A model generated the notes under the pieces. The model saw only the letters and a program-made list of their open reading frames with translations, was not told where the DNA came from and made no database searches. A DNA stretch of 64,000 nt, taken from the NCBI GenBank assembly GCA_002162095.1, contig CP021424.1, positions 1,860,001 through 1,924,000 on the forward strand, written 5' to 3'. The stretch's first letter is position 1; every line of letters starts with the position of its first letter. Of this stretch, positions 589 to 37,615 are shown in pieces. A program made the position numbers and the translations under genes. Source of the DNA: Armatimonadetes bacterium Uphvl-Ar2 (GTDB lineage Bacteria > Armatimonadota > Fimbriimonadia > Fimbriimonadales > Fimbriimonadaceae).

Positions 589-1868
589 CAGCTGATTTCT
601 CCTAGATAGTCGCTACCATCCCAGACATAAGTGGTTGTACCCGAAGCCGTCTGTTTGGTTCTTCGCAATCCGTCACCGTCATACGTCATCGTGGTCGAAG
701 TTTCATCCGGTAGGGTTACCTTCGTCATCTCGTTCCGGCGGTTGTAGGCGTACACCGTGCGAATGGCGCTGGACCCTCTCTGTTCAATCGTCGTATTGCC
801 GTTATTGTCGTAAGTGAAGGTCACCCGGGTCGGGCCATCTTGCATGGTGGTCAGGCGCTGGGCTGCGTTGTAAGTCATGGTGGCGGGCAGACTGCCTTGA
901 TGATGCTTCACGGTTTGGTTGCCAACGGAATCATACGTGAAGGTCGAGAAAGCCCCTGACGTTTGTTGTCCCGTCAGGCGACTGGCATTGTCGTAGGTGT
1001 AGGAAGTCGTGACCCCATTCGCCACCTGCTTGGTTTTCCGGCCGGCCGCATCGTAAGTGTCCACAACCGTTGAGATGACCGTACTTGCTTGCAGTCGCGT
1101 CAGGGTAACAGGCCGACTCAATGCATCATAGGTTGTGATCTGAGAACCGGAACCATAGAGCAATGTGGTCAAATTGCCGTCGGTGTCGTACTGAGACGTG
1201 TAGATCTTGCCGCTAGGCAGCATCTGTGCACTCACCCGATTAAGGGCATCGAACGTTGACGTCGTGCGGCCACCATCGGGGTCGATCATCAGCTCGCGGT
1301 TGCCCACGGCATCGTATTGATAGCTGATGACGAGTGCCCCGGGGCTCTCCACCCGCGAGACTTCGTTGCGGGCGGTGTAGGCGTACTTGGTGGTGCCGGT
1401 GGCATCGATCATGGTGGTGCGATTGCCCACGGCATCGTACGCATAGGTCACGGCCGAAGGGGAAGCGCCGTACAGCACCTGGGTGGTGCGGCCGAGGGCA
1501 TCGTGCGTGTGCGTTTGCACCCAGCCATTGGCATCCAGGATGGTGGTGGGCCGCCCCGCCGCGTCGTAGCTGGTGGTGGTGGCCAGGTTGAGCTCGTTAC
1601 GCAGGGCAATCTGTCGCCCGGCAAGGTCATACGAATAGGTGATCCGGTTGCCCCGGGCATTTTGGCGGCTGGTTTGCTGCCCCGCAAGATCGTAGGAGTA
1701 CGTGGTGCGGTTGCCGAGAGGATCCACGCTCGCCGACATACGGTTGGAATTGGCCGAATACACCGAGGTGGCGATGAAGCCCAGCGGATTGGTGACGCTG
1801 GTTTGGTTTCCGGCGTTGTCATAGGCGTAGCTCGTGCGGTTGCCAAGCGGGTCCACCGAGGCCGTCAC
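588..1868 (-). CDS. RHS/YD-repeat fragment lacking its N-terminus
   Basis: 426 codons made almost wholly of YD repeats of the type YAYDNAGNQTS, YSYDLAGQQTS and YDAAGRPTTI, ending at YVWDGSDYLGEIS. This is the repeat shell of RHS/teneurin-like proteins. The frame opens at GTG 1868. An in-frame TGA lies only 15 bases upstream, yet the codons between still read AFGQVTA, which fits RHS text, so this looks like a 5' truncation rather than a natural start. No signal peptide, PAAR or other delivery domain is present. Upstream is the end of a small unrelated gene (1890-2456). It was probably moved here as an internal RHS fragment and may not be expressed alone. Confidence 0.8.
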   Translation of the reverse strand: MTASVDPLGNRTSYAYDNAGNQTSVTNPLGFIATSVYSANSNRMSASVDPLGNRTTYSYDLAGQQTSRQNARGNRITYSYDLAGRQIALRNELNLATTTSYDAAGRPTTILDANGWVQTHTHDALGRTTQVLYGASPSAVTYAYDAVGNRTTMIDATGTTKYAYTARNEVSRVESPGALVISYQYDAVGNRELMIDPDGGRTTSTFDALNRVSAQMLPSGKIYTSQYDTDGNLTTLLYGSGSQITTYDALSRPVTLTRLQASTVISTVVDTYDAAGRKTKQVANGVTTSYTYDNASRLTGQQTSGAFSTFTYDSVGNQTVKHHQGSLPATMTYNAAQRLTTMQDGPTRVTFTYDNNGNTTIEQRGSSAIRTVYAYNRRNEMTKVTLPDETSTTMTYDGDGLRRTKQTASGTTTYVWDGSDYLGEIS

Positions 1869-1889
1869 TTGACCGAAAGCTCATTGAAG

Positions 1890-2456
1890 CTATTCTGAGT
1901 CGCAATATTGGAACAGAAATATTAGTTGCATCATATTTTGCTCAGCACCGAGCAGCGGGCAATAAGATTTAATACCCTCACCCAACGCATAGGATACATA
2001 ATTAACGAATGACAAGCGGATGATTGTAGCGAGAAGCTCACGTTGGTGTGGCGGAAACTCTCTAATCTGACTTGCAATATCCTCCAGGACATCCGGATCA
2101 GCAATTACAATGCTGAAGAAGGAGATATACTCAGGTTGGAAGGCGTCCACTGTCAACATAGCCATTAACATGAAGGGCAATGCAGTAAACAGTTCGGAGG
2201 CATTACTGCCACCGCTTGTAGTCGATACTCCTCCAAATTCAACGCCGTACGCGAGTAGTTCATGGGCGACCTCATTAGTAACCTGACTCAACCGCATGGC
2301 GTTTAGGTGTTCAGCCAAAGGATTTGTAGAAACCAACTCGTACGAGGGACCAAAGACCCTAAGGAGACAGTCTCTGCAGGCGGGACGCACCTGGATCAAT
2401 GCACTCGTCAATGGTCGATCGAGATACAGTTCCTCTGAGCTAAAGTCGACTTCCAT
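1890..2456 (-). CDS. Hypothetical protein, candidate immunity for the preceding RHS tip
   Basis: 188 residues with no recognised family. It has no signal peptide and no clear membrane anchor; the middle and C-terminus are rich in hydrophobic helices (LPFMLMAMLTVDAF, FVNYVSYALGEGI). It starts 24 nt after the stop of the RHS tip at 2481-3566 on the same strand. That is the usual place for an immunity gene in RHS and CDI modules, and this position is the only basis for the proposal. Base composition is visibly lower in GC than the core genes, which suits an accessory cassette. It could equally be an unrelated cytoplasmic protein. Confidence 0.5.
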   Translation of the reverse strand: MEVDFSSEELYLDRPLTSALIQVRPACRDCLLRVFGPSYELVSTNPLAEHLNAMRLSQVTNEVAHELLAYGVEFGGVSTTSGGSNASELFTALPFMLMAMLTVDAFQPEYISFFSIVIADPDVLEDIASQIREFPPHQRELLATIIRLSFVNYVSYALGEGIKSYCPLLGAEQNMMQLIFLFQYCDSE

Positions 2457-2480
2457 GACCGCTAAAACGATAGCTTAAAG

Positions 2481-3566
2481 CTACCACTTGTCCCCTCTTA
2501 CATACTTGGCACAATTATTCCTGAAGACGCCCCAGAATGCGTCAGAAGATTTGAAGCATTTGTGCCTACGTTGACAGTTCGCAAGCTGAGTTAGCCTAAC
2601 GCAAAACTGTTCTAAGTGGCCTTCGAATTTTTCTTCCCACTTTTCTGATCCAGGTCCTCTTGGTGGTCGCAAGTCACACATGATGTAGAGCGACCTTAGT
2701 CGCAACATATCGCCCAGAGCACTGTCGGGAAATCGCCCGGGGTAAGTGGTAAAGCAACAGTCTTGCCTAGTCAAATCACCATTTCGCGGAATCTCTCTTT
2801 CGGCCTTTTTAGCAAGACGATGCCATTCTGTGCATTCGTCGTAAAGGGGGTGGTAAAACTCAAAGCACTTGCCGGGTTCAACTTCGTCGGGCATTGGAAA
2901 TGGCACTTGAACTGGATAACCTGGACCTCGGAAAGGGGGTGCCCATGGCACTGGTGTTGAGTTGCTGCCAAGATCTCCGGGCCAACCAGGGTACGTACCT
3001 CTACCAGGCGATCGTCGAGGTGTCGGGCGAGGAGCTGGGCGCGGGGCATATGGTGAGTCTTTCGGGTCGATCCAAGGATAGGCTGGATTCGGTCGCCAAT
3101 ACCTGCCACGCCCGCCAGGTGCCGGATGCCAAGGACTATTACTCCCAGGGAAACCAGCGCCCCTGTTATTCGATCGCCGACCTCTATCGCCTTCTGGATC
3201 GATCAAGCTCGACGGATTCGAATACACATACGAATACGGGAATTCACTTGGCCACGACTGATCCACGCTCGTCCAACTCGCTTGATTCGTGCCGTAGTGC
3301 CGGGCGCGGTTGTAATGCTCCGCACGGCTCCGTCCAGTCACTCTTGATCCGGTATCTCCCGTCCACTGAAAGTCGGGGTCTGGTCCGCTGCCCGATTTGG
3401 CCAGGCGCTCACCGTACGGCTTGTACCGATATGTATTCGTTACTCGCTTCCCGTTCACGGTTGCAGTGACGGAACCTAGCGCATCGGTGAGGTACTGGGT
3501 AAACGTCGTCCCCGTACTTTGCCCGACCATTTGGCCGTTCACGGTGTGATAGTTGACAACTTGCAT
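2481..3566 (-). CDS. Orphan RHS tip with proline-rich linker and Cys-rich C-terminal domain
   Basis: 361 residues. Residues 1 to about 125 are the conserved RHS core end: YHTVNGQMVGQ, QYLTDALGSVTATVNG, YKPYGERLAK, a RARHYG motif and DPEGD. Next come about 100 residues very rich in Pro, Gly and Arg (a linker). The last ~130 residues form a distinct domain with about ten cysteines (ECTEWHRLAKKAER, RQDCCFTTYPG, NCQRRHKCFKSSD). The domain is not recognised; a secreted toxin is the family-based guess. There are no YD repeats and no export domain upstream of the ATG, so this is a tip-only copy. Its first 296 bp match the start of the tip at 4483-5460 without gaps. Confidence 0.7.
   Translation of the reverse strand: MQVVNYHTVNGQMVGQSTGTTFTQYLTDALGSVTATVNGKRVTNTYRYKPYGERLAKSGSGPDPDFQWTGDTGSRVTGRSRAEHYNRARHYGTNQASWTSVDQSWPSEFPYSYVYSNPSSLIDPEGDRGRRSNNRGAGFPGSNSPWHPAPGGRGRYWRPNPAYPWIDPKDSPYAPRPAPRPTPRRSPGRGTYPGWPGDLGSNSTPVPWAPPFRGPGYPVQVPFPMPDEVEPGKCFEFYHPLYDECTEWHRLAKKAEREIPRNGDLTRQDCCFTTYPGRFPDSALGDMLRLRSLYIMCDLRPPRGPGSEKWEEKFEGHLEQFCVRLTQLANCQRRHKCFKSSDAFWGVFRNNCAKYVRGDKW
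3271..3566 (-). repeat. 296-bp direct repeat, RHS tip conserved half (copy 1)
   Basis: By eye this segment aligns without gaps to 5165-5460 at roughly 85-90% identity. Identity is highest at the 5' end of the reading frame and falls toward the RARHYG codons, after which the genes become unrelated. This is the conserved-then-variable boundary expected where tips are exchanged by recombination. Confidence 0.85.
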
Positions 3567-8601: not shown

Positions 8602-8677
8602 GGCGTCGTACCCAAGCGGTGAAGGGAACGGTCTGCAAAACCGTGATGCAGCGGTTCGAGTCCGCTCGACGCCTCCA
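8602..8677 (+). tRNA. tRNA-Cys (GCA)
   Basis: Cloverleaf read by eye. Acceptor GGCGTCG pairs with CGACGCC; anticodon stem ACGGT/ACCGT encloses loop CTGCAAA with anticodon GCA at 8635-8637; T arm is AGCGG-TTCGAGT-CCGCT. Discriminator is T with encoded CCA (8675-8677), as expected for tRNA-Cys. Followed 31 nt later by a second, non-identical tRNA-Cys. Confidence 0.93.
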
Positions 8678-8708
8678 ACCTTGTTGCGTTCCCGCGAAAA
8701 AACAGTTA

Positions 8709-8783
8709 GGCGCCGTAGCCAAGTGGTAAGGCAGAGGACTGCAAATCCTTTACGCGGCGGTTCGAATCCGCCCGGCGCCTCCA
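8709..8783 (+). tRNA. tRNA-Cys (GCA), second gene
   Basis: Acceptor GGCGCCG pairs with CGGCGCC; D arm GCC/GGC; anticodon loop CTGCAAA with GCA at 8741-8743; T arm GGCGG-TTCGAAT-CCGCC; discriminator T and encoded CCA at 8781-8783. It differs from the upstream tRNA-Cys in all stems, so it is not a recent duplicate. Confidence 0.93.
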
Positions 8784-9453: not shown

Positions 9454-10427
9454 ATGGCTTCGGGCGGCACCTCTTCGGCATCGCTGTCGCGTCGGCTTTT
9501 GGGCCGCGTGGCGGCGGGCTTGCTGAGCGTGCTGTTTGTGGCATTCGTCACCTTTATGGCCGACGAACTGGCCCCCGGCGATGCCGCGATGGCCATCCTG
9601 GGCGAGAAAGCCCGCCCCGAGCAGATCACCGCGATGCGCAAGCAGATGGGGCTGGACCGGCCCGTGGCCGTGCGCTTTGTGGAGTACGTGGGCAAGGCGG
9701 CGCGGGGTGATTTTGGGAACTCGTATTTCGGCACCCGCGAGCCAGTGAGCGAGTTGATCAGCCGCTCTCTGCCCATCACGGCGATGCTGGCGATCCTGGC
9801 CATTGGGGTGGCGGCGCTGATTGGGATCACGCTTGGCTCGCTGGCGGCAATCTTTGAAGATCGCTGGCCCGACCGCATCATCCTGGCTCTCAGCACTTTG
9901 GGGGTTACGGTGCCAAACTTTGTTCTTATCCCCATCTTCATGCTCATCTTTGTGTTGAGGATGGACCTCTTCCCGCTCACCTGGGAAACCCCCTGCGCGG
10001 CCCGCTTTTCTTCTATCTGGTGCTGCCGGTGGCGGTGCTGGCGGCCCGGCCGATGGCGGTGCTGACCCGACTAACGCGCGCCAGTTTCGTGGATGTTTTG
10101 CGGCAGGAATATATGCGTTTTGCCCGCGCCAAGGGCGTGCCGTTTGGGCAACGCATGTTCAAGCACGGCCTGCGCAACGCCATGCCGCCGGTGGTGACCG
10201 CCATGGGCAACTCGTTCGGCATCCTGCTCACGGGTTCGTTCATCACCGAGACCGCTTTTGCCATGCCCGGGCTGGGCAAGGCCGCGATTGACGCGATCAA
10301 GAAGCGCGACACCCCGGTGGTGATGGCCACCGCTCTCACGGCGGCGGTGCTCTACATCCTGGTCAACCTCATCGTGGACCTGATGCAGCCCGCGCTCGAC
10401 CCGCGCGTGCGGGAGTCGCAGGTATGA
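9454..10427 (+). pseudogene. DppB-like ABC peptide permease, frameshifted
   Basis: The first ~180 codons from ATG 9454 give a DppB/OppB permease (AFVTFMADELAPGDAAMAIL, RPEQITAMRKQMGLDRPV, LPITAMLAILAIGVAALIG, TVPNFVLIPIFMLI). After FPLTWET the frame turns to Arg/Trp/Cys-rich nonsense and stops at 10065. The proper continuation (PLRGPLFFYLVLPVAVLAAR, then EYMRFARAKG and GSFITETAFAMPGLG) is in the next frame and ends at 10427. Adding one C to the C5 run at 9989-9993 restores a ~324-residue permease of normal length. The dppC-like start overlaps the 10427 end by 4 bp, arguing for a working operon and either a sequencing error or a recent mutation. No canonical slippery heptamer is present. Confidence 0.88.
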
Positions 10428-11233
10428 AGCGGCGCGACCCGCTCTTTTGGGGCGGCGTGGTTTTCTTGGTTTTCTTGGTGCTGTTCGCCATTTTCGGCCC
10501 GAACCTGCGCCACAACCCCATCACCCCGGTGGGCACCAACTTTTTGCCGCCGTCGTCGCAGTATTGGCTAGGCACGGATGAACTGGGGCGCGACATCTTT
10601 GCCCGCCTGGCCGAAGGGGCGCGGATCTCGCTCTTCGTCGGTTTTGCGGTGCAGGCCATCGCCCTCACCGTCGGCATCATTGTCGGCCTGACCGGGGTGT
10701 ACGGGCCGCGCTGGCTGGCCGGGCCGATCATGCGCCTCACGGACGCCATGTTCGCCTTCCCCGATATCCTCCTCGCCATCCTCATCATCGGGGTGTGGGG
10801 GCTGGGCATCACGCCCGTCATCGTGGCGCTCAGCATCACGGCCTGGCCGGGGGTGGCCCGGCTGGTGAAGACGCAAGCCGCCGCCATGAACGAACGCGAA
10901 TTCGTGGTGGCCAGCCGTGCCCTGGGGGCGGGCACCCTGTGGACCGTGACCCGGCACGTGCTGCCGCACCTGGCCCCGCTGCTGACAGCGGTGGCGATGG
11001 TGGAGGTCGCGGGGACGATTCTGGGCGAGAGCGCTTTGTCCTTCCTCGGGATCGGCGTGCAGCCGCCCAACCCGAGCTGGGGGAGCATGATTAACTCGGC
11101 GCGGTCGGAGATGAATAGCCACCCCACCCTGTTGCTGTGGCCGTGTTTGTTGCTGTCGCTGACGGTGTTTGCGCTGAACTTTGTGGGGGACGGCATGCGC
11201 CGCCGCCTCGATCCGCGCGCGAGTCAGCAATAG
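10424..11233 (+). CDS. DppC-like ABC peptide permease
   Basis: 269 residues, integral membrane subunit of a dipeptide/oligopeptide importer. Features: an N-terminal membrane segment (FWGGVVFLVFLVLFAIFGP), HNPITPVGTNFLPPSSQYWL then GTDELGRDIFARL (the DppC signature), four further membrane spans, and the ATPase-coupling EAA-type loop REFVVASRALGAG. It overlaps the dppB-like gene by 4 bp. The substrate-binding protein is not nearby, and the only related ATPase is at 26953-27918. The last ~70 codons are duplicated at 12446-12658, and the gene forms the left border of the Cys-rich/pseudopilin tandem array. Confidence 0.92.
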   Translation: MKRRDPLFWGGVVFLVFLVLFAIFGPNLRHNPITPVGTNFLPPSSQYWLGTDELGRDIFARLAEGARISLFVGFAVQAIALTVGIIVGLTGVYGPRWLAGPIMRLTDAMFAFPDILLAILIIGVWGLGITPVIVALSITAWPGVARLVKTQAAAMNEREFVVASRALGAGTLWTVTRHVLPHLAPLLTAVAMVEVAGTILGESALSFLGIGVQPPNPSWGSMINSARSEMNSHPTLLLWPCLLLSLTVFALNFVGDGMRRRLDPRASQQ

Positions 11234-11448
11234 GTATACAAACTTCTACTTTTTTTTTTTCAGATACTTAAGTTACTATCCTGAGCATGAGGAAGTACTT
11301 GCTCATGTTAGGTGCCAGCATCGCCCTGGCGATCCCCCTTGCCGCGGTGACGGATGCTGCGGCGCGCGACTACCGAATCAACTCATGGAAGAACGACCCT
11401 AGCTGTGCTGAAGCCAAGGAGAAGTTGGCACAAGGCGAGCTGATGTCG
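11023..11448 (+). repeat. Direct repeat copy 1: dppC 3' end plus leader of Cys-rich gene
   Basis: Repeated at 12448-12870. It contains the last ~70 codons of the dppC-like gene, a T11 tract, a -10 box and the first ~54 codons of the Cys-rich gene. The intergenic and Cys-rich portion is nearly identical between copies. The dppC portion carries more substitutions (GESALSFLG versus GEKPLALLG), as if the copies came from different alleles. Confidence 0.92.
11274..11279 (+). promoter_or_regulatory. Putative promoter of first Cys-rich gene (TACTAT -10 with T11 tract)
   Basis: TACTAT lies 7 nt before ATG 11287, so transcription would start close to the start codon. A run of 11 T (11250-11260) ends 13 nt upstream of the box and covers the -35 area. 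The second copy has only 9 T. Confidence 0.5.
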
Positions 11449-11700
11449 GTTGTTAAGTGTGAGGCTCCGGACAAAGATTCCTGCTTCATCAGTTGTTCCA
11501 GAGTTAATGGACTTTGGACATACAAACTCAACAGCGGTATGCGCGGCTGTGCTCAGGCAACGGGCTGCGTAGACGGTACCTGTCGAGTGCGGATTTATGA
11601 AGCGTATCCTTGCAGTGCGAGCAACCTGGTGGAAAGCTACACTGAAAGCAATAAGCACTGCGGTCTTCCTACCTATGGATCTGGCGGTGCCGGAGAGTAG
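11287..11700 (+). CDS. Small secreted nine-cysteine protein (copy 1)
   Basis: 137 residues, no recognised family. The signal peptide MRKYLLMLGASIALAIPLAA with an AxA-type site near AVTDAAA predicts export. The mature chain has nine Cys, spaced C-x7-C-x3-C-x17-C-x5-C-x4-C-x9-C-x15-C after the first, and ends PTYGSGGAGE. The paralogue at 12709-13131 keeps the same Cys framework while most other residues differ after residue 54. An exported disulfide-stabilised mini-protein is likely; a surface, bacteriocin-like or pilus-associated role is speculation. It is 15 nt ahead of a pseudopilin gene, so the two are probably co-expressed. GC is lower than in dppC. Confidence 0.75.
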   Translation: MRKYLLMLGASIALAIPLAAVTDAAARDYRINSWKNDPSCAEAKEKLAQGELMSVVKCEAPDKDSCFISCSRVNGLWTYKLNSGMRGCAQATGCVDGTCRVRIYEAYPCSASNLVESYTESNKHCGLPTYGSGGAGE

Positions 11701-11715
11701 TTAGAGGTCGATACC

Positions 11716-12393
11716 ATGCCCGGAAAACGTCAACAATCGCAAGATTCTGATAGTCTACTTGAGCGTGGGCTAAGTATGGTCGAGATTCTAGTCAGTCTTG
11801 CGATTGTTGCCGTTCTTAGTATTCTCATATCAGCAGTCTTGATTAGAGCCAAGTCAAGCGCCCGTGTCGCGAGTTGTATGCAAAACCTGCGTCAAATTGG
11901 CCTTGCTTCCGAGTTGTACTCTAACGATGTTGATGGCAATTTTATACCATTTGGTACTCACATTCCAAACACCGTTCTCCAAGAGAGCGGTGTAGATATC
12001 CTATCTCAAGGAAAGGCTTGGAAACGTGAACTTGGTCGGTACGGAGTCGCCCGGGGACAGTTCTTCTGCCCGGATGATCCATATACAAACCCTCAAAGTG
12101 CGGACTCGCTAATGCCAATGCGACCTCAGTCTGAACATACACATGGAAGTGCACGTCTCTTAACGAGTTATGCAGTTGTGCATGCGGTGTACTTCCGAAG
12201 TATTGGATATAGTAGATCCAGCGTTGATAGTCCTTCCGAACGGCCATACGCAACTGACGGAGTAGTCGAGGTAAAGGGCGGTCTTGCAACTTACAATCAC
12301 GGCGTGCGATTTAATGTACTGCATATTGATGGTAGTGTGAAGAGCTATTCAAATACTCACACATTCCCAGCACTTCTTCGTCCTCGGCCATAA
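11716..12393 (+). CDS. Type II secretion/type IV pilus pseudopilin-like protein with H-x9-DG motif (copy 1)
   Basis: 225 residues. A prepilin peptidase site precedes the hydrophobic helix: RG^LSMVEILVSLAIVAVL, with the required Glu at +5. The helix continues through about residue 45, followed by SCMQNLRQIGLASELYSNDVDG and CPDDPYTNPQ. The C-terminus has NHGVRFNVLHIDGSVKSY, an H-x9-DG motif of the prepilin-type H-X9-DG family expanded in Planctomycetes, Armatimonadota and relatives. It would be inserted in the membrane and processed by a PilD-like peptidase not seen here. It follows the Cys-rich gene by 15 nt and is paralogous to 13146-13832. Confidence 0.88.
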   Translation: MPGKRQQSQDSDSLLERGLSMVEILVSLAIVAVLSILISAVLIRAKSSARVASCMQNLRQIGLASELYSNDVDGNFIPFGTHIPNTVLQESGVDILSQGKAWKRELGRYGVARGQFFCPDDPYTNPQSADSLMPMRPQSEHTHGSARLLTSYAVVHAVYFRSIGYSRSSVDSPSERPYATDGVVEVKGGLATYNHGVRFNVLHIDGSVKSYSNTHTFPALLRPRP

Positions 12394-12445
12394 ACTCTCA
12401 ATCGTATTTTGTCGGTCGCTGCCTTCCAGCTATAGTATCAGAGAT

Positions 12446-12658
12446 ATGGGTGAAAAGCCCTTGGCTCTCTTGGGGATTGGCGTGCAGCCGCCCAACCCGA
12501 GCTGGGGAAGCATGATCAACTCGGCGCGGTCGGAGATGAATAGCCACCCCACCCTTTTGCTGTGGCCGTGCTTGATCCTCTCGATGACGGTGTTTGCGCT
12601 GAACTTTGTGGGGGACGGCATGCGCCGCCGCCTCGATCCGCGCGCGAGTCAGCAATAG
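12446..12658 (+). pseudogene. Duplicated 3' fragment of the dppC-like gene
   Basis: Seventy in-frame codons matching the end of the dppC-like permease (GIGVQPPNPSWGSMINSARS through RRRLDPRASQQ). No membrane core or coupling loop is present, so it cannot act as a permease. Several substitutions (LILSMT versus LLLSLT) are conservative, as if this fragment came from a functional dppC allele of a related strain rather than from the adjacent gene. It marks the left boundary of the second cassette unit. Confidence 0.9.
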
Positions 12659-12870
12659 GTATACAAACTTCTATTTTTTTTTCAGATACTTAAGTTACTA
12701 TCCTGAGCATGAGGAAGTACTTGCTCATGTTAGGTGCCAGCATCGCCCTGGCGATCCCCCTTGCCGCGGTGACGGATGCTGCGGCGCTCGACTACCGAAT
12801 CAACTCATGGAAGAACGACCCTAGCTGTGCTGAAGCCAAGGAGAAGTTGGCACAAGGCGAGCTGATGTCG
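12448..12870 (+). repeat. Direct repeat copy 2: dppC 3' end plus leader of Cys-rich gene
   Basis: Second copy of 11023-11448, 1425 bp downstream. The T tract is 9 instead of 11. Identity to copy 1 stops abruptly after codon 54 of the Cys-rich gene. Confidence 0.92.
12696..12701 (+). promoter_or_regulatory. Putative promoter of second Cys-rich gene (TACTAT -10 with T9 tract)
   Basis: TACTAT, 7 nt before ATG 12709, preceded at 13 nt by T9 (12674-12682). Same arrangement as at 11274 but with a shorter T run. Confidence 0.5.
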
Positions 12871-13131
12871 AATGTAATCTGCAAGCCTGAGGGTGTTGAC
12901 GCTTGTCACAAGCCGTGTACTCCAACTCCGGGAGGGGGTGCCATTTACAAGCCACCCAGCGGATGGCGGGCATGCGGTGAGATTGATGTGTCCAAGTGCA
13001 CCTCGACCTTTTGCACCGTGAGGGCCTATGACGATACGTCTTGCGGTCCAACCTCGTTCTTGTACGAATACAACGAGAGTGCGCGTCGGTGTAATCAGCC
13101 AACGTATGGGTCTGGAGGAGCTGGAGAGTAG
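12709..13131 (+). CDS. Small secreted nine-cysteine protein (copy 2)
   Basis: 140 residues. The first 54 residues match the copy at 11287 except for one change after the signal peptide (AALDY versus AARDY). Beyond that the sequence differs almost completely (VICKPEGVDACHKPCTPTPG), yet the Cys spacing is kept (C-x7-C-x3-C-x18-C-x7-C-x4-C-x9-C-x15-C), as is the PTYGSGGAGE tail. A constant leader and Cys scaffold around a variable body suggests diversification by recombination or selection on a surface or secreted factor. It is followed after 14 nt by its own pseudopilin gene. Function unknown. Confidence 0.75.
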   Translation: MRKYLLMLGASIALAIPLAAVTDAAALDYRINSWKNDPSCAEAKEKLAQGELMSNVICKPEGVDACHKPCTPTPGGGAIYKPPSGWRACGEIDVSKCTSTFCTVRAYDDTSCGPTSFLYEYNESARRCNQPTYGSGGAGE

Positions 13132-13145
13132 ATTCCCAGATTAGC

Positions 13146-13832
13146 ATGAGCATTAAGCGGCAACATTCGTCTTTGTTGACTGTTCGTCATGAATCTGGCA
13201 TTAGTTTGGTTGAAGTACTTGTCAGCATTGCGATCGTTGCCGTACTTAGTGCTCTTATCTCTTTCGCGATTCTCCGGTCTAAGTCTGCTTCCAAATCGGC
13301 TGCATGCTTGCAGAACATGCGTCAAATTGGACTCGCAATTGAACTCTACGCCAATGACGTTGATAACTGTTTTCCTCCTTATGGTACGCACTGGCCTACG
13401 CCATATCTCACAGAGTATAATGCTTCTGATCTGGATGATCGACTAGAAATTGCTCAACGTTGGAAGAAGGCAGTTGCTGCATACGGAGTTAAAGAGCCGC
13501 AGTTCTTCTCGCCAGACGATCCCTTCACAAACGTACAAGCAGCTGAGGCATTGGTTCCCCTCAGGCCACTTGCCGATGGCTTGGGCGGTAAAGCTCGGTT
13601 GGTGACAAGCTATGCAGTTACCCTCTCTTTACGTTTTCACATAATTGGAGTAAGTCGCTCAGCAATTGAGCGACCTTCGGAAACTCCTTATCTTGCAGAA
13701 GGACTAGTCGAGCTGATCAATCCACCAAAGACTATCCATGGCGCGAGGCAAAACATTCTTCATGTCGATGGTAGCGTGAAGAACTATCCGAACACCCACC
13801 AGTTCCCTCAGGTGGTGAATCCGAAGCCATAA
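13146..13832 (+). CDS. Pseudopilin-like protein with H-x9-DG motif (copy 2)
   Basis: 228 residues, paralogue of 11716-12393. Prepilin site SG^ISLVEVLVSIAIVAVLSAL with Glu at +5, then CLQNMRQIGLAIELYANDVD, SPDDPFTNVQ, and IHGARQNILHVDGSVKNY with the H-x9-DG pattern. The order Cys-rich gene, pseudopilin is the same in both units, which argues for a functional pair. At the protein level the two pseudopilins are moderately similar throughout, unlike the Cys-rich pair, whose identity is concentrated at the N-terminus. The last 105 nt before glmS contain no gene. Confidence 0.88.
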   Translation: MSIKRQHSSLLTVRHESGISLVEVLVSIAIVAVLSALISFAILRSKSASKSAACLQNMRQIGLAIELYANDVDNCFPPYGTHWPTPYLTEYNASDLDDRLEIAQRWKKAVAAYGVKEPQFFSPDDPFTNVQAAEALVPLRPLADGLGGKARLVTSYAVTLSLRFHIIGVSRSAIERPSETPYLAEGLVELINPPKTIHGARQNILHVDGSVKNYPNTHQFPQVVNPKP

Positions 13833-13925
13833 CTGAACGTGGTTTGTCGGCTCGCATTGCGAGCAGGCCCAGGCGAATGTGCGCCCACCCACGCTGCGCC
13901 CGCACCGTCAACCCCCTGTACCGAC

Positions 13926-13931
13926 TAAAAT
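13926..13931 (+). promoter_or_regulatory. Putative -10 box of glmS
   Basis: TAAAAT, 6 nt before ATG 13938. No glmS ribozyme-like or other 5' leader can fit between the box and the start codon; transcription probably begins at the A of the ATG. Confidence 0.55.
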
Positions 13932-13937
13932 ACGGGC

Positions 13938-15767
13938 ATGTGTGGCATTGCGGGGTACGTGGGACCCCAGTCGGCCGTTCCGATTGTCTTCGACCAGCTT
14001 CGACGCCTGGAGTACCGAGGGTACGACAGCGCGGGCATTGCCTTCCCGCAGGGTGACCGCATCGGCATCCTCAAGCGCGCGGGCAAGCTGAGCGGCCTGG
14101 GCGAGATGTTGGCCCAAGAAACCCCCGAGTCCCACGTCGCCATTGCCCACAGCCGCTGGGCCACCCACGGCGCCCCCAACGACCTGAACGCCCACCCGCA
14201 CTACGACCAATTCGGGCAGATTGCGCTCATCCACAACGGGATCATTGAGAACTATCTCGAGCTCAAGACGGAACTCGCCCGGGAAGGGGACACCTTCCAG
14301 AGCGAGACCGACACCGAAGTCGCCGCCCACGTGATTGGCCGCCTGCACGCCCAGGGCCTGAGCCTGGAAGAAGCCGTGCGCCAGTCTCTGGCCAAGTTCC
14401 GGGGTGCGTACGCCTTTGTCGTGCTCAGTGCCCGCGAACCCGGCACCATCGTGTGCGCCCGCAACGCCAGCCCGCTCGTGCTGGGCTTCGGCGAGGGCGA
14501 AAACCTCCTCGCCAGCGACGTGCCCGCCCTCATCCCCTGGACCCGCCGGGTGTGGACCATGCCCGACGACACCGTGGCCGTGCTGACCAAGGACGGCATC
14601 CGGGTGACGGACGTAAACGGCCGCCCGGTGGAAGCCGAGCCCGAAGAAGTGACCTGGGACGTCGCCGCCGCCGAGAAGGGGGGCTACGAGCACTTCATGA
14701 TCAAGGAGATTCATGAACAGCCGCTGGTGGCCCGCCAGTGTCTGGCCGGACGGCTGACCGACGACAACCGGGTAGCCCTGGATGGCGTCTTCAGCGACCA
14801 CGTGTGGCAAGAAATTGACCGGGTGAACATCATTGGCTGCGGCACCGCCTACCACGCCGGGCTGATGGGCAAGCACCTGTTTGAGCGCATGCTGCGCCTG
14901 CCGACCGACGTGTTCTATAGCAGTGAATTCCGCTACGGCGACCCGCTGCTGAGCGACCGCTCCCTGGCCGTGTTTATTAGCCAGAGCGGTGAAACCGCCG
15001 ACTCCCTGGCCGCCCTGCGCCTGTGCCAGCAGCGCCGCATCCGCACGCTCGGCATTGTCAACGTGGTGGGCAGCGCCATCGCCCGGGAATGCGACCGCGT
15101 GATTTACACTCAGGCGGGGCCGGAGATCAGCGTGGCCAGCACCAAGGCGTACACCGCTCAGTGCCTGGTGCTGTTGCAACTAGGGATGACCATTGCCCAG
15201 CATCGAGAGATGCCCGGGGTGCGCGTGGAAGAAGTAGTGCGCGACCTGCGCCAGTGGCCGGAACGGGTGGTAGAAGCCCTGGGGCTGGAAGAGCAAGTGA
15301 AGCGCATTGCTAACGAGTGGGCGGATAGCCGCATGGCCTTTTTCTTGGGCCGCAACGCCGACGCCGCCGTGGCGCTAGAAGGGGCGCTCAAGCTCAAAGA
15401 GATCGCCTACATCCCCACGCAAGAAGGACCGGCGGGCGAACTGAAGCACGGCCCCCTGGCGCTGGTGGAAGAAGGCGTGCTGGCCGTGTTCGGGGCCACC
15501 GACCCGTTTGTGCGCGAGAAACTCGCCAGCAACGTGAAAGAAGTGCAAGCCCGGGGCGGGCGCGCGCTGATTATCACCACCCATGATGACGACACGATGG
15601 ACGGCGTGGGCGATGAGGTGCTGCGCATCCCCGGCGGCAAGACGCCGTACCTGAACGCGCTGATGAGCGTGGTGCCGCTGCAACTGCTGGCCTACTACAT
15701 GGCGCGGGCGAAGAACCTGGAGATCGACATGCCCCGCAACCTCGCCAAGAGCGTCACGGTCGAGTAA
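13938..15767 (+). CDS. glmS: Glutamine-fructose-6-phosphate aminotransferase (isomerizing)
   Basis: 609 residues, full length. Makes glucosamine 6-phosphate from fructose 6-phosphate and glutamine, the entry to peptidoglycan amino sugars. The N-terminal class II amidotransferase domain begins MCGIAGYVG with catalytic Cys2, then RLEYRGYDSAG and HSRWATHGAPN. Two SIS domains follow, with SSEFRYGDPLL and SQSGETADS in the first and EGALKLKEIAYIPTQEGPAG in the second. The C-terminus LPRNLAKSVTVE is the conserved ammonia-channel tail. It is monocistronic, with the -10 directly ahead of the ATG. Confidence 0.97.
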   Translation: MCGIAGYVGPQSAVPIVFDQLRRLEYRGYDSAGIAFPQGDRIGILKRAGKLSGLGEMLAQETPESHVAIAHSRWATHGAPNDLNAHPHYDQFGQIALIHNGIIENYLELKTELAREGDTFQSETDTEVAAHVIGRLHAQGLSLEEAVRQSLAKFRGAYAFVVLSAREPGTIVCARNASPLVLGFGEGENLLASDVPALIPWTRRVWTMPDDTVAVLTKDGIRVTDVNGRPVEAEPEEVTWDVAAAEKGGYEHFMIKEIHEQPLVARQCLAGRLTDDNRVALDGVFSDHVWQEIDRVNIIGCGTAYHAGLMGKHLFERMLRLPTDVFYSSEFRYGDPLLSDRSLAVFISQSGETADSLAALRLCQQRRIRTLGIVNVVGSAIARECDRVIYTQAGPEISVASTKAYTAQCLVLLQLGMTIAQHREMPGVRVEEVVRDLRQWPERVVEALGLEEQVKRIANEWADSRMAFFLGRNADAAVALEGALKLKEIAYIPTQEGPAGELKHGPLALVEEGVLAVFGATDPFVREKLASNVKEVQARGGRALIITTHDDDTMDGVGDEVLRIPGGKTPYLNALMSVVPLQLLAYYMARAKNLEIDMPRNLAKSVTVE

Positions 15768-15825
15768 TTCACCAAGTAAGGAACCTGGCCTAAAGTATCT
15801 ACCCCTTGTCGACTAGGGCTGGGGG

Positions 15826-16497
15826 TCAAGGCTTTTGAGCCTGTTCTTGCACGAGCTTGATTCGTTCACTCAGCATTTCTATTGAAGCGTCACTCACAGC
15901 CAACTTCTTGACTTCGCCTTCGTTGTAATCCAGAATCGTGAGAGACTTCCAACCAATTGATTGGAGGAATGTGTAGTCTGCTTTCATCCCGTCGCGCATT
16001 GATCCGTGGAGCTTCTCCGCCGGCGATGTGTAGTTCGGTCCGTAGGTGAAGTACCAGTACTCTCGAAGGAACCCTGTTAGGTGGATTCTTGGTTCCCCTT
16101 CAATGTCATTGACCAGAACGTACGTACGGTAAAACTTGTTTGGGTCCGCTTTTGAATACCAAGTCTGCTCAACCGAACCTTGGGACTGGCTCAAAACTGC
16201 GTTCTCAACTTTGCCCGGTTCCATACTTGCGAGTGGGGCCTTGACGTGGCGAATTATGCTTTGACATTGCTCAACTGTCGTCGAGTTTGCCTTTCTCTCC
16301 TCCGCAATTTGATATTTTAGCAGCACTCGACAATCGTTCGATTGAAATGCTTTGAAGATCACTGCGGCATGAGCCTGCATGGACTGCGGGCGGGTTAGCC
16401 AACGATAAAGGAGTGCACAACCTAACAAGAGGGCTACGCATACTAGCCAAACGAGTATCGGCCTCGATCTCATCTTTCCAATAATAGCTGTAATCAT
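15826..16497 (-). CDS. Hypothetical single-pass membrane protein
   Basis: 223 residues, not recognised. One N-terminal membrane span (ILVWLVCVALLLGCALLYRW) follows a short basic leader, with the remaining ~180 residues probably outside. That region has two Cys (NDCRVLLKY, VEQCQSIIRH) and aromatic strands (FLREYWYFTYGPNY). An internal ATG eight codons downstream, behind GGAAAG, is an alternative start. It is the last gene of a four-gene minus-strand island (lipoprotein, pseudopilin, Cys-rich protein, this gene), 21 nt after the Cys-rich gene. GC is visibly lower than in glmS and kbl on either side, suggesting acquisition. Confidence 0.6.
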   Translation of the reverse strand: MITAIIGKMRSRPILVWLVCVALLLGCALLYRWLTRPQSMQAHAAVIFKAFQSNDCRVLLKYQIAEERKANSTTVEQCQSIIRHVKAPLASMEPGKVENAVLSQSQGSVEQTWYSKADPNKFYRTYVLVNDIEGEPRIHLTGFLREYWYFTYGPNYTSPAEKLHGSMRDGMKADYTFLQSIGWKSLTILDYNEGEVKKLAVSDASIEMLSERIKLVQEQAQKP

Positions 16498-16518
16498 ATT
16501 GGGTTGTGCACTCCAGTG

Positions 16519-16872
16519 CTAGCCAGGTCCGGGGCCCGGCAGAACGGCATCACAGTGTGGAGTGGGCGACGTGACACATAGTGCCCCCTCAGTGTTGATC
16601 CGGTTCACGGTCATGCCTGTCCCACACCAAGGAAATCCATGGCACGAGTAACTCATGTATTCGCAGAGGCAACAACCGCTACCGTTAGTATAGCATGCCG
16701 TGTAGGTCGCTCCAAGCGCGAGGACGTTGCAAAGGTTGCCGCATCCATACGAAGTGCACCCAACATCGGAATTGACGCCACTAAATCTCTCTTTCCCCCA
16801 ATTGCATGGGGGAGCGTAGGCGAAGGATGCAAGGCCAGCGAGAAGCAAGCCTAGTGCTATGGGTCGTTTCAT
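16519..16872 (-). CDS. Small secreted Cys-rich protein (12 cysteines)
   Basis: 117 residues, no recognised family. ATG 16872 is preferred over the ATG four codons upstream because GGAG sits at a normal distance before it. The signal peptide MKRPIALGLLLAGLASFAYA is followed by a mature chain with 12 Cys, including NGSGCCLCEYMSYSC and SDVGCTSYGCGNLC, and a short Gly/Pro tail. It resembles the two nine-Cys proteins at 11-13 kb in size, export and proximity to a pseudopilin, but not in Cys spacing. The neighbouring CxxxC lipoprotein could assist disulfide formation (inference). Confidence 0.7.
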   Translation of the reverse strand: MKRPIALGLLLAGLASFAYAPPCNWGKERFSGVNSDVGCTSYGCGNLCNVLALGATYTACYTNGSGCCLCEYMSYSCHGFPWCGTGMTVNRINTEGALCVTSPTPHCDAVLPGPGPG

Positions 16873-16897
16873 TTTTTTCTCCATTGGTGTTGTCGGA

Positions 16898-17515
16898 CTA
16901 TTGGGATTCCCAATTTCTAAGCTTATCTGGACGGCCCTTCATTGACCGCCTTTGCACGTGACCATCCCAGAAGGCTCCGATTGCGCTCCTAGTTCTGAAA
17001 GGCGACTGGCTGGCCTCGTTGTAGTCGTCATGAGTCATATCTAGGATGATCAACGGATTGCCGCCTGTATTCGTCACATGTTCCTTCCATTGATGTAGCC
17101 TGGATTCTTGATTGCTGGTCAACGATGTGTAAGTCGGGGGAATCCACATGTAAAGCGCACTATCTTTGAATCCCAGAATGTCATTGCCGCCGGTTCGAGT
17201 CAAAGATTTCGAAATGTGCCCTGAATCAAGCAAAGACTTCATTCCATCTTGTAATGAAATCTCATCGAGGTCAGAGTTGTAGATGTGTTGGGCGGCAACG
17301 ATCTGCTTCATCTGTGCCATCGAGCGGGTTATCTTGGCGCTCTTCTTTGCCTGAGTGTAAGTTGGGAACAGCAGCGCCGCAAGCATCGCGACGATGGCTA
17401 CGACGATCAGAAGTTCGATTATGGTAAATCCTTGCGCAGTGGGTTTAGAGTGTCTTAGCAAAGGTGCCCTCCGAAAGTGGTTCGGTCGTAAAGGACGTGA
17501 GAACTTGCTTTTCAA
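16898..17515 (-). CDS. Pseudopilin-like protein
   Basis: 205 residues from the longest frame; the true start may be later because the first ~24 codons overlap the end of the lipoprotein gene. Prepilin motif QG^FTIIELLIVVAIVAMLAAL with Glu at +5 and a long hydrophobic helix. Then ITRSMAQMKQIVAAQHIYNSDLDE, as in G-type pseudopilins. Near the end, GAFWDGHVQRR keeps the DG element but lacks the His of the H-x9-DG pattern. It is paired with a downstream Cys-rich gene (26 nt away), so the pseudopilin/Cys-rich association recurs here in reverse order. Confidence 0.82.
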   Translation of the reverse strand: MKSKFSRPLRPNHFRRAPLLRHSKPTAQGFTIIELLIVVAIVAMLAALLFPTYTQAKKSAKITRSMAQMKQIVAAQHIYNSDLDEISLQDGMKSLLDSGHISKSLTRTGGNDILGFKDSALYMWIPPTYTSLTSNQESRLHQWKEHVTNTGGNPLIILDMTHDDYNEASQSPFRTRSAIGAFWDGHVQRRSMKGRPDKLRNWESQ

Positions 17516-17873
17516 AAAGCATCATCTTGCCCGACCAGGACGCTCCAATCCGATGAAATGTGCGGCTATCAACGGACTTGTAGTGGATTCTCGAATGGTG
17601 AAAGCGACGCGAGGTGATCGGTTCTGTTTCAGGGAACAGAATATAAACCGCGTCCACGTTAGGCAGCACCGTCATCAAATCGAAGTCAGATTTTCTGCAA
17701 ATGGATTGGCACGGTTCCGCAAATACGAGCACTCGTGGTGATTGGTCATCAATCTTCAAATCCGAAAGAGTCAAGTCTGAATCAGGTTCAATCAGGGAGG
17801 CGGGCATTGCAGGTTCTGCTGAGTTGCAGCTCACTGCGAGTATCGCTAGCCAAAGAAATGGAAACAGTCTCAC
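17445..17873 (-). CDS. Putative thioredoxin-like lipoprotein with CxxxC motif
   Basis: 142 residues from GTG 17873, with AAGGAG about 7 nt upstream and a TATACT -10 further up (17893-17898). The N-terminus MRLFPFLWLAILAVSC is a lipoprotein signal with Cys16 as the lipidation residue. After a short linker comes a beta strand followed by two cysteines, RVLVFAEPCQSICRKSDF, resembling the active-site region of thioredoxin/SCO-type folds but with CxxxC rather than CxxC. The fold assignment is tentative. It heads the Cys-rich/pseudopilin island, so an envelope thiol-redox role toward those products is plausible. Unlike many core genes here, it has a normal leader with a Shine-Dalgarno sequence. Confidence 0.5.
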   Translation of the reverse strand: MRLFPFLWLAILAVSCNSAEPAMPASLIEPDSDLTLSDLKIDDQSPRVLVFAEPCQSICRKSDFDLMTVLPNVDAVYILFPETEPITSRRFHHSRIHYKSVDSRTFHRIGASWSGKMMLFEKQVLTSFTTEPLSEGTFAKTL

Positions 17874-17931
17874 AACTCATCTCCTTTGCTGAAGTATAAG
17901 GCAAGAATTTGGATGAATAGCATTTTTTTTG

Positions 17932-17953
17932 GAGTAGGCCTAAAGGCCTACTC
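17932..17953. repeat. Perfect 9-bp inverted repeat upstream of kbl
   Basis: GAGTAGGCC-TAAA-GGCCTACTC in the intergenic space between the divergent lipoprotein and kbl genes. The T8 run lies on the 5' side on the plus strand, so it is not a standard terminator in either direction. It lies upstream of the kbl promoter and may be an operator or a hairpin remnant of island insertion. Confidence 0.7.
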
Positions 17954-17990
17954 AATGGATTAGAATTGAACTTGGTAAGATTCAGGTGAG

Positions 17991-19190
17991 ATGAACGACA
18001 CCCTCCAGTCTTGGCTCAAAGGTGAGCTCCAGTCGCTGCGTGACCAGAACCTGTACAAGGTTCCGCGCATCCTCAATTCTCCGGCGGGGGGCCGGGTGCA
18101 GATGGATGGCCGGGAGGTCATCAACCTAAGCAGCAATAACTATTTGGGCCTGGCCAACGACCCGCGCGTGCGGCAGGCCGCCGAAGAAGCCATCGAACGT
18201 TGGGGCGTGGGCGCGGGGGCCGTGCGCTGGATTGGCGGCACCATGGAAGTCCACGACGAGCTCGAGCGCAAGCTGGCCGAGTTCAAACATGTGGATTCGG
18301 TGTTGGTGTTCACCGGGGGCTTCACGGCCAATAGCGGCTGCATCCCGGCGGTGGTGACGAAGGACGACGTCATCATCAGCGACGAACTCAACCACGCCAG
18401 CATCATTGACGGAGTACGCCTGAGCGCGGCCAGCTACAAGAAGAGCGAGGGCTGGGTGTACGCGCACAAGGACATGGACGCGCTGGAAGACTGCCTCAAG
18501 CGCGCGCAGGGCTTTAAGAAGCGGATGATCATCACCGATGGGGTCTTCAGCATGGATGGCGACATTGCGCCCCTGCCGGAGATCGTGGCGCTGGCCGAGC
18601 AGTACGACGCCTTTGTAATGGTGGACGACGCCCACGCCAGCGGGGTGCTGGGCAAGAACGGGGCCGGCACCGCCAGCCACTTTGGCCTCTACGGCCGGGT
18701 GGATATCCAGCTCGGCACGCTCAGCAAAGCGCTGGGGGTCATTGGCGGCTACATCGCGGGTTCGCACGAACTGAAGGATTGGCTCATCAACCGGGGCCGT
18801 CCGTACCTCTTCAGCACTGCGCACCCGCCGATGGTGGCGGCGGCGCTGATCAAGGCACTGGAAATCATGCAAACCGACCCGACGCCGATGGAGCGACTGT
18901 GGGCCAACGCCCGCCGCTGGAAGGTGATGCTGAACGAAGCCGGATTTGACACCATGGGCAGCGAGACGCCCATCACTCCGGTCTACGTGGGTGACGAAGG
19001 GGCCGCGCAGCGGATGGAGCGCATGCTGTGGGACGAAGGCGTTTACGCGCTGGCCATCGTCTACCCGACGGTAGGCTTGGGCAAGGCCCGCATCCGCACG
19101 ATGCCGAACGCGACGCACACCGAGGAAGACCTGGACCAGGCGCTGCGGGCCTTTGTGAAGGTGCGCGACCAACTGGGCGCTGTGCACTAA
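17991..19190 (+). CDS. kbl: Glycine C-acetyltransferase (2-amino-3-ketobutyrate CoA ligase)
   Basis: 399 residues, a PLP enzyme of the alpha-oxoamine synthase family. It interconverts 2-amino-3-oxobutyrate plus CoA with glycine plus acetyl-CoA in threonine degradation. Visible features: EVINLSSNNYLGLANDPRV, the GGTMEVHDELE segment, DELNHASIIDG, VMVDDAHASGVLG (PLP Asp/His) and Lys246 in GTLSKALG, which forms the Schiff base. Family members include BioF; the N-terminal and NYLGLA details favour Kbl, though a BioF-like specificity cannot be excluded. No tdh neighbour is present. AGGTGAG precedes the ATG and TAAGAT lies at 17976-17981. Confidence 0.85.
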   Translation: MNDTLQSWLKGELQSLRDQNLYKVPRILNSPAGGRVQMDGREVINLSSNNYLGLANDPRVRQAAEEAIERWGVGAGAVRWIGGTMEVHDELERKLAEFKHVDSVLVFTGGFTANSGCIPAVVTKDDVIISDELNHASIIDGVRLSAASYKKSEGWVYAHKDMDALEDCLKRAQGFKKRMIITDGVFSMDGDIAPLPEIVALAEQYDAFVMVDDAHASGVLGKNGAGTASHFGLYGRVDIQLGTLSKALGVIGGYIAGSHELKDWLINRGRPYLFSTAHPPMVAAALIKALEIMQTDPTPMERLWANARRWKVMLNEAGFDTMGSETPITPVYVGDEGAAQRMERMLWDEGVYALAIVYPTVGLGKARIRTMPNATHTEEDLDQALRAFVKVRDQLGAVH

Positions 19191-36955: not shown

Positions 36956-37615
36956 TCACTTCCGCGTTTCTGCGCACAAAGTGTTTGGATCAACGTCGCT
37001 AAACAGCGCCGCATAGCAGAGCTGAACTTCGCCGCTCGCACTACGGTCGCTTAGAGTATCGGTCGAAACCGACCCGTCCAGTCGTGCTCTTACAATGCGC
37101 CCCTGGTATCCGGTAAGCGAGCCGAAGCACTCAGGTGTATTGCCATGCAACCAATCACCAAGACCACGGTAGGCGACCAGCGCATAGTTCTGGTCGTGCT
37201 TCTCCAGGGTGGTGATGTGAACGTTTCGAGTGGAAGTCTCTGCAAAGACATCCTCAAACGAATTGCGAATTCCTGGCTTGAGCGGCGTGGTCCATCCCTG
37301 GCAGCCTTCAATCCAATGGGCCAAGCCTTCAGGCTTCGGATCCCCTTTGACATGAAGGACAACCGGATCAAGGTGTCCTGAGATAACCGCTTCACCCAGG
37401 TGATTCTCGGGCCACTGCCCGTATTCGGTGTGGTACAGCTGGAGACCGATCCCAACTTGCTTAGCCTTGGCAATCGCATCGGCCTTGAAGGCCTCGCGCT
37501 TGGCAGCGCGATAGATGGGGAAGGTAAGCCCCGCTAGTAAAAGGATGATAGCGAGAGTGACCAACACCTCCACCAGGGTAATTCCTAATCTTGATCGAGC
37601 CGATTTGCAATCCAT
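36956..37615 (-). CDS. Pseudopilin-like protein
   Basis: 219 residues. Prepilin site LG^ITLVEVLVTLAIILLLAGL with Glu at +5, then FPIYRAAKREAFKADAIAKA, KQVGIGLQLYHTEYGQWPEN, a pattern typical of G-type pseudopilins. The C-terminal part has RARLDGSVSTD, a DG element without the His of H-x9-DG. Cysteines are few. The first 31 nt overlap the end of the small membrane-protein gene, so the two are coupled. It sits in a lower-GC cassette bounded by 42-bp repeats between the antiporter and the DsbD-like gene. Confidence 0.85.
   Translation of the reverse strand: MDCKSARSRLGITLVEVLVTLAIILLLAGLTFPIYRAAKREAFKADAIAKAKQVGIGLQLYHTEYGQWPENHLGEAVISGHLDPVVLHVKGDPKPEGLAHWIEGCQGWTTPLKPGIRNSFEDVFAETSTRNVHITTLEKHDQNYALVAYRGLGDWLHGNTPECFGSLTGYQGRIVRARLDGSVSTDTLSDRSASGEVQLCYAALFSDVDPNTLCAETRK

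Follow-up and report, generated by a model that had tools for sequence, protein, structure and literature searches.

In Vibrio cholerae, the minor pilin TcpB docks and exports TcpF, a secreted protein encoded alongside it, and in ETEC the minor pilin CofB and the co-encoded secreted protein CofJ take part in export by a type IVb pilus (PMC9565799). The Kil (Tad) pilus of Myxococcus carries interchangeable tips, each of three minor pilins with extra domains (PMC12075869). Phase-variable contingency loci with homopolymer tracts are known from Neisseria (PMC5084427, PMC5320596). A literature search, with most subscription journals outside it, returned no description of pilin/Cys-rich cassettes or of phase variation for Armatimonadota.

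The cassettes that we describe here, from an armatimonadote genome, are best seen as a variation on two such systems, the pilus-cargo module and the contingency locus. As in TcpB-TcpF and CofB-CofJ, the gene for a soluble, Sec-exported protein lies next to that of a pilin-type protein, which could hold cargo at the tip of a filament, and the cargoes are unrelated from one system to another; in TcpB/TcpF, it is the C-terminal domain of the minor pilin that binds the N terminus of the cargo. Unlike those systems, the cassettes come without a whole pilus operon, their cargo is small and Cys rich, their pilins resemble DUF1559 proteins, many cassettes occur per genome, tracts lie at their promoters, and secretion of the cargo is predicted. 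As with Kil, several separate clusters per genome could give one filament different tips, but a cassette consists of a single pilin and a separate Cys-rich protein. The likeness to the Neisseria contingency loci lies in tracts of a single nucleotide, 8 to 16 nt long, at the promoter or the 5' coding end of a surface gene, with the difference that switching here is predicted. Finally, the pilins share a prepilin N terminus and an H-x9-DG-like C-terminal motif with the DUF1559/H-X9-DG proteins of Planctomycetes, Verrucomicrobia, and Armatimonadota, but they are divergent, fall below the family cutoffs, and have dedicated Cys-rich partners, which the canonical DUF1559/H-X9-DG pilins of the same genome do not.

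The source genome (class Fimbriimonadia, Armatimonadota) is complete at 2.63 Mb, and the window is the whole stretch of 64,000 nucleotides that was analyzed. Named relatives, identified via the permease gene, are Fimbriimonadaceae/Fimbriimonadia metagenome-assembled genomes, the closest being 'Chthonomonas sp. UBA2785' (G001). The first two cassettes lie between dppC and glmS, as follows.

10424..11233, plus strand: intact DppC-like ABC permease gene, 5' of cassette 1; orthologues 98% (G001) and 79% (G002) identical
11022..11466, plus strand: DNA repeat copy 1, comprising the permease 3' end, the intergenic region, and the first 54 Cys-rich codons
11250..11260, plus strand: T11 tract, 27 nt 5' of the ATG of Cys-rich protein 1
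11287..11700, plus strand: nine-Cys secreted protein 1, 137 aa
11716..12393, plus strand: noncanonical type IV pilin-like protein 1, 225 aa
12446..12658, plus strand: second, truncated copy of the permease 3' end
12447..12888, plus strand: DNA repeat copy 2, with a sharp end at codon 54 of the second Cys-rich gene
12674..12682, plus strand: T9 tract, 5' of Cys-rich protein 2
12709..13131, plus strand: nine-Cys secreted protein 2, 140 aa
13146..13832, plus strand: noncanonical type IV pilin-like protein 2, of 228 aa, sharing 52% identity with the first
13938..15767, plus strand: glmS, the conserved flank on the downstream side

Farther upstream, the DppB-like permease (9454 to 10427) is split into two overlapping open reading frames (9454 to 10065 and 10020 to 10427) where G001 has one intact frame of 324 aa; this is a frameshift, either real or a sequencing error. 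Two tRNA-Cys genes with anticodon GCA lie side by side at 8602 to 8783, about 2.5 kb 5' of the Cys-rich cassettes.

A sequence-only reading of this region had described two units, each a nine-Cys secreted frame followed by a pilin-type frame, and the frame coordinates bear this out, with gaps between the partners of 15 nt in unit 1 and 14 nt in unit 2. The first 54 residues of the Cys-rich pair differ only by R27L, the eight Cys spacings are exactly those that had been written for the pair, and the PTYGSGGAGE tail is the same in both. The proposed period of 1,425 nt is correct for the 5' part of the units, becomes 1,422 nt after the T tract, and is longer beyond. Both pilins have a class III signal before the hydrophobic helix, with G at -1 and E at position 5 (G-LSMVE and G-ISLVE), and both reach the TIGR02532 cutoff, while N_methyl is passed by the pilin of copy 2 only. 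Their description as H-x9-DG pseudopilins thus stands for the prepilin site and for a C-terminal motif read by eye, the label being such a reading because the TIGR04294 (H-X9-DG) profile reports neither protein; the DUF1559 (SBP_bac_10) scores, 19.2 and 19.7 bits, stay under the cutoff of 23.3. For the Cys-rich proteins, searches of Pfam, NCBIfam, PADLOC, PHROGs, and PDB sequences gave no family, and a weak match of one copy to DUF7591 (E value of 0.028) was dropped, as no other member shares it. AlphaFold2 models from two-sequence alignments had pLDDT values of 46 for the nine-Cys protein and 37 for the pilin, too low for a fold search. Rfam gave no RNA over 11000 to 18100, PADLOC matched the cassettes to no antiphage defense system, PHROGs recognized only the generic pilin N terminus, viral and phage collections held no contig matching the cassettes, and a scan of genome contigs with pilin 2, own genome excluded, gave no match.

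The near identity of the two leaders had been taken as a fixed export leader in front of a changing body. This interpretation does not hold, as leader identity is most simply a matter of DNA: the repeat of ~440 nt covers the final ~210 nt of the gene for the ABC permease, and since it starts within that gene, unit 2 opens with a truncated permease fragment. By Nei-Gojobori counts between the units, the leader has 0 changes over 36.7 synonymous sites, whereas the Cys-rich bodies (pS of 0.79, pN of 0.50) and the pilins (pS of 0.76, pN of 0.35) are synonymously saturated. The tail differs from the leader in that it has 6 synonymous and 0 nonsynonymous changes, identical at the protein level only, and has therefore been kept by selection on the protein. 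Within the permease fragment, dS is 0.21 over the first 39 codons and the last 18 codons are unchanged between copies; at seven of the sites where copy 2 departs from copy 1 it agrees with G001, with several such sites in mid-fragment, while at the 3' end the two copies agree with each other against G001. This mosaic is consistent with recombination that brought in a divergent allele from a related lineage, the 5' part having been exchanged recently. Judged from these patterns, the leader was spread by recombination not long ago and now fronts two alleles whose divergence is old. Contrasting body with leader, as the sequence-only reading had advised, gives a body pN/pS of 0.50/0.79 against no synonymous change in the leader; with synonymous sites saturated, these values do not establish positive selection on the body.

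Taken further, this reading would give a diversity-generating locus in which a constant export leader precedes a programmed variable body. The border at codon 54 is indeed sharp, and a like border occurs within a pilin gene of G004, where tandem genes (L150) are alike over 66 codons (dS of 0.12) and diverged to saturation over the remainder (pS of 0.87). We nevertheless find a programmed body very improbable, as the identity continues inside the permease gene, saturation at synonymous sites is the same for the bodies as for their partner pilins, and the genome holds neither silent copies nor additional nine-Cys matches.

To follow the pairing beyond the window, we built a nine-Cys profile from five proteins and ran it on 113 genomes of the class. 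It found 12 intact matches outside the source genome, spread over ten genomes, and every one of the 12 is directly followed by a same-strand pilin-type gene, so that the predicted co-occurrence is upheld; the genus is otherwise represented by G001 and G002, and the profile matches neither. The neighboring pilin body has no recognizable class III signal in G032 and G028 and has Q at position 5 in G104. Pilin bodies of this signal-less sort, next to nine-Cys relatives (L175, 908 to 1483, minus strand; L182, 1647 to 2474), suggest that the body can function without filament assembly, and cassette pilins may enter no filament at all. For the second, 12-Cys family, a pilin lies directly 5' in 7/7 relatives whose upstream DNA could be examined, with a thioredoxin-like CxxC gene upstream in 6 of these. 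Within the source genome, where the survey took in the stretches around the 46 N_methyl matches, a small Cys-rich secreted frame adjoins 6 of 23 noncanonical pilins versus 0 of 22 canonical 'AFTLIELLVVIAIIAILAA' pilins. Ten matches to T2SSE-family ATPases are present in the genome, and filament machinery is therefore available. Two pilin loci of other makeup may be recorded here. A noncanonical pilin with Cys residues of its own (36956 to 37615, minus strand), conserved in G001 (L118), has no Cys-rich neighbor. At L110 of the source genome (1258 to 3981), a multipass membrane protein of ~200 aa and a noncanonical pilin form a tandem pair, the pilin copies being alike in DNA at 81% and then 70%; this is possibly another class of paired pilin cassette.

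Constant order, tight spacing, and the redox gene held by many cassettes would also be expected if the Cys-rich and thioredoxin-like proteins were folding or maturation helpers of the pilin, neither cargo nor tip. For a helper, however, conservation would be expected, and the Cys-rich partners form several unrelated families (9-, 12-, 8-Cys, and others) that vary more than their pilins, making this role improbable.

A third cassette, of the 12-Cys family, occupies the other side of glmS.

15767..17991, no strand assigned: the whole third islet, from glmS to a glycine C-acetyltransferase-like gene; G001 has 39 bp here instead
15826..16497, minus strand: third-cassette protein, either membrane anchored or lipoprotein-like; distant relatives occupy the equivalent position at L088, L108, and L115 of G001
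16519..16884, minus strand: 12-Cys secreted protein, 121 aa, of the second Cys-rich family
16898..17515, minus strand: noncanonical pilin of the third cassette
17445..17873, minus strand: small secreted CxxxC protein, located where relatives have a thioredoxin-like CxxC protein; no Pfam match
17923..17930, no strand assigned: T8 tract, read as A8 on the coding strand, 5' of cassette 3

The operon order thioredoxin-like, pilin, Cys-rich, lipoprotein recurs at L088 and L108, and the window version has CxxxC in its first gene. Comparison with G001, a sister species whose flanking DNA is ~95% identical to that of the source genome, reveals presence and absence of whole islets: in place of the glmS, L107, and L108 islets, G001 has 39, 16, and 99 bp, respectively. 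At the sdaA site, the source genome has thioredoxin-like, pilin, Cys-rich, and lipoprotein genes, and G001 has pilin, pilin, and lipoprotein. Because G001 retains this islet with no Cys-rich gene, the pairing is not obligatory. Islet G+C content is ~50%, whereas the window has 61% and one flank has 65%. Insertion by a mobile element was considered for the islets and rejected; there is no integrase or other mobile-element gene, and the empty sites have neither target duplication nor inverted repeats. The L107 islet (1533 to 3539 in the source genome), absent from G001, adjoins a tRNA-Gln gene. We do not accept that G001 lacks the dppC-glmS cassette, as a 2-N assembly gap sits exactly at the site. 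G002 has the gene for an unrelated PEP-CTERM-type secreted protein there (L046, 3213 to 4103).

Patchy, low-G+C islets encoding small, secreted, disulfide-rich proteins raise the question of antagonism, by contact or by diffusion, in which the Cys-rich protein would act as a bacteriocin-like toxin, its delivery or release coupled to the pilin, and the lipoprotein of some cassettes would confer immunity. Kil pili do kill using interchangeable minor-pilin tips (PMC12075869), and the lipoprotein, which follows in three cassettes of the source genome, persists in G001 where the Cys-rich gene is absent, as an orphan immunity gene might. Yet both nine-Cys cassettes of the window are without a lipoprotein, the lipoproteins are 20 to 38% alike with no visible covariation with the Cys-rich protein, and no match to toxin, bacteriocin, or defense families was found. 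We consider such a toxin unlikely, although a more serious candidate than a helper function.

The two dppC-glmS cassettes differ in tract length, T11 against T9 being the sole indel between otherwise near-identical repeat copies. Across 217.5 kb of the source genome (the window and 31 pilin loci), only seven homopolymer runs reach 8 nt or more, and six of them (T11, T9, T8, T15, T14, and C8) are just 5' of the six Cys-rich/pilin cassettes, the first gene behind the tract at L108 being the thioredoxin-like frame. Every run of at least 9 nt in the surveyed DNA is a cassette tract, and none of 39 other pilin genes has a run of at least 8 nt within 150 nt. The chance of such placement is ~3e-15 with 100-nt windows, a figure that is indicative, the threshold having been picked post hoc. 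In other genera the tracts are of G or C, with G16 and G8 ahead of two cassettes of G008 and runs of 8 to 10 at or near the 5' ends of further cassettes in G008, G004, G023, and G104, for a total of about 15/27 cassettes across genera with a tract near the 5' end (longest, G16). L257 has an additional G9 within its thioredoxin-like frame. Several cassettes have no tract, among them almost all 12-Cys operons of other genera.

An unstable simple repeat placed to alter expression is one mark of a contingency locus, and the cassette tracts are so placed. In G023, a TTGACT box, TTCTTC followed by G9, and TAAAAC could be read by eye as a promoter with the tract in its spacer; a promoter scan did no better than with shuffled sequences, and -35/-10 placement is by eye only. 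The suggestion of a variable surface or secreted factor, putatively an adhesin, bacteriocin, or recognition protein, is supported by the tracts, compared in one genome per species, and by presence and absence between sister species. That neighbors and homopolymers are both by-products of ordinary pilin gene expansion, brought together by chance, might be entertained for a lineage so rich in pilins, with 46 N_methyl matches here and, in F. ginsengisoli, a reported 79 PulG-type genes together with pili to which a role in attachment has been ascribed (PMC4072686). The linkage counts across genera, 12/12 and 7/7, refute this in practice, and the tract positions are well past chance expectation, so that we give it hardly any credence.

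The explanation that we favor, at roughly even chances, is that these are phase-variable, laterally exchanged cassettes of Fimbriimonadales, each with a dedicated minor pilin that serves to display a disulfide-rich partner or to export it, a role drawn by analogy from TcpB-TcpF and the Kil pili. Each cassette would supply a Sec-exported disulfide-rich protein and its own noncanonical type IV pilin, a minor pseudopilin, with many cassettes adding a thioredoxin-like CxxC protein that would handle disulfides and some a lipoprotein. Once expressed, the Cys-rich protein would fold in the periplasm and then physically bind its partner pilin; type IV pilus or type II secretion machinery would build a filament with that pilin near the tip, and the filament would carry the Cys-rich protein to or through the surface, presumably toward some biological target. 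Slippage of the mononucleotide tract at the cassette promoter, or sometimes in the 5' coding region, would change expression from cell to cell, and new alleles would enter by homologous recombination in flanking core genes, with occasional tandem stacking, as in the window. An extension of this explanation to the whole clade, which we hold tentatively and at somewhat under even chances, is a contingency system of several independently switched cassettes that share a pilus or secretion filament, each with a different disulfide-rich tip or cargo that would be used for recognition or antagonism, and with alleles recombined between strains.

That several cassettes are missing from the sister species suggests a set of surface or secretion components open to exchange. 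Most known cases of phase variation by homopolymer slippage come from host-associated pathogens. If our explanation is true, the surfaces of free-living, mostly uncultured Armatimonadota would probably be under strong frequency-dependent pressure, exerted by phage, by predators or rivals, or by attachment partners that change, and part of the large and unexplained expansion of pilin-like genes in this class would gain its first concrete role.
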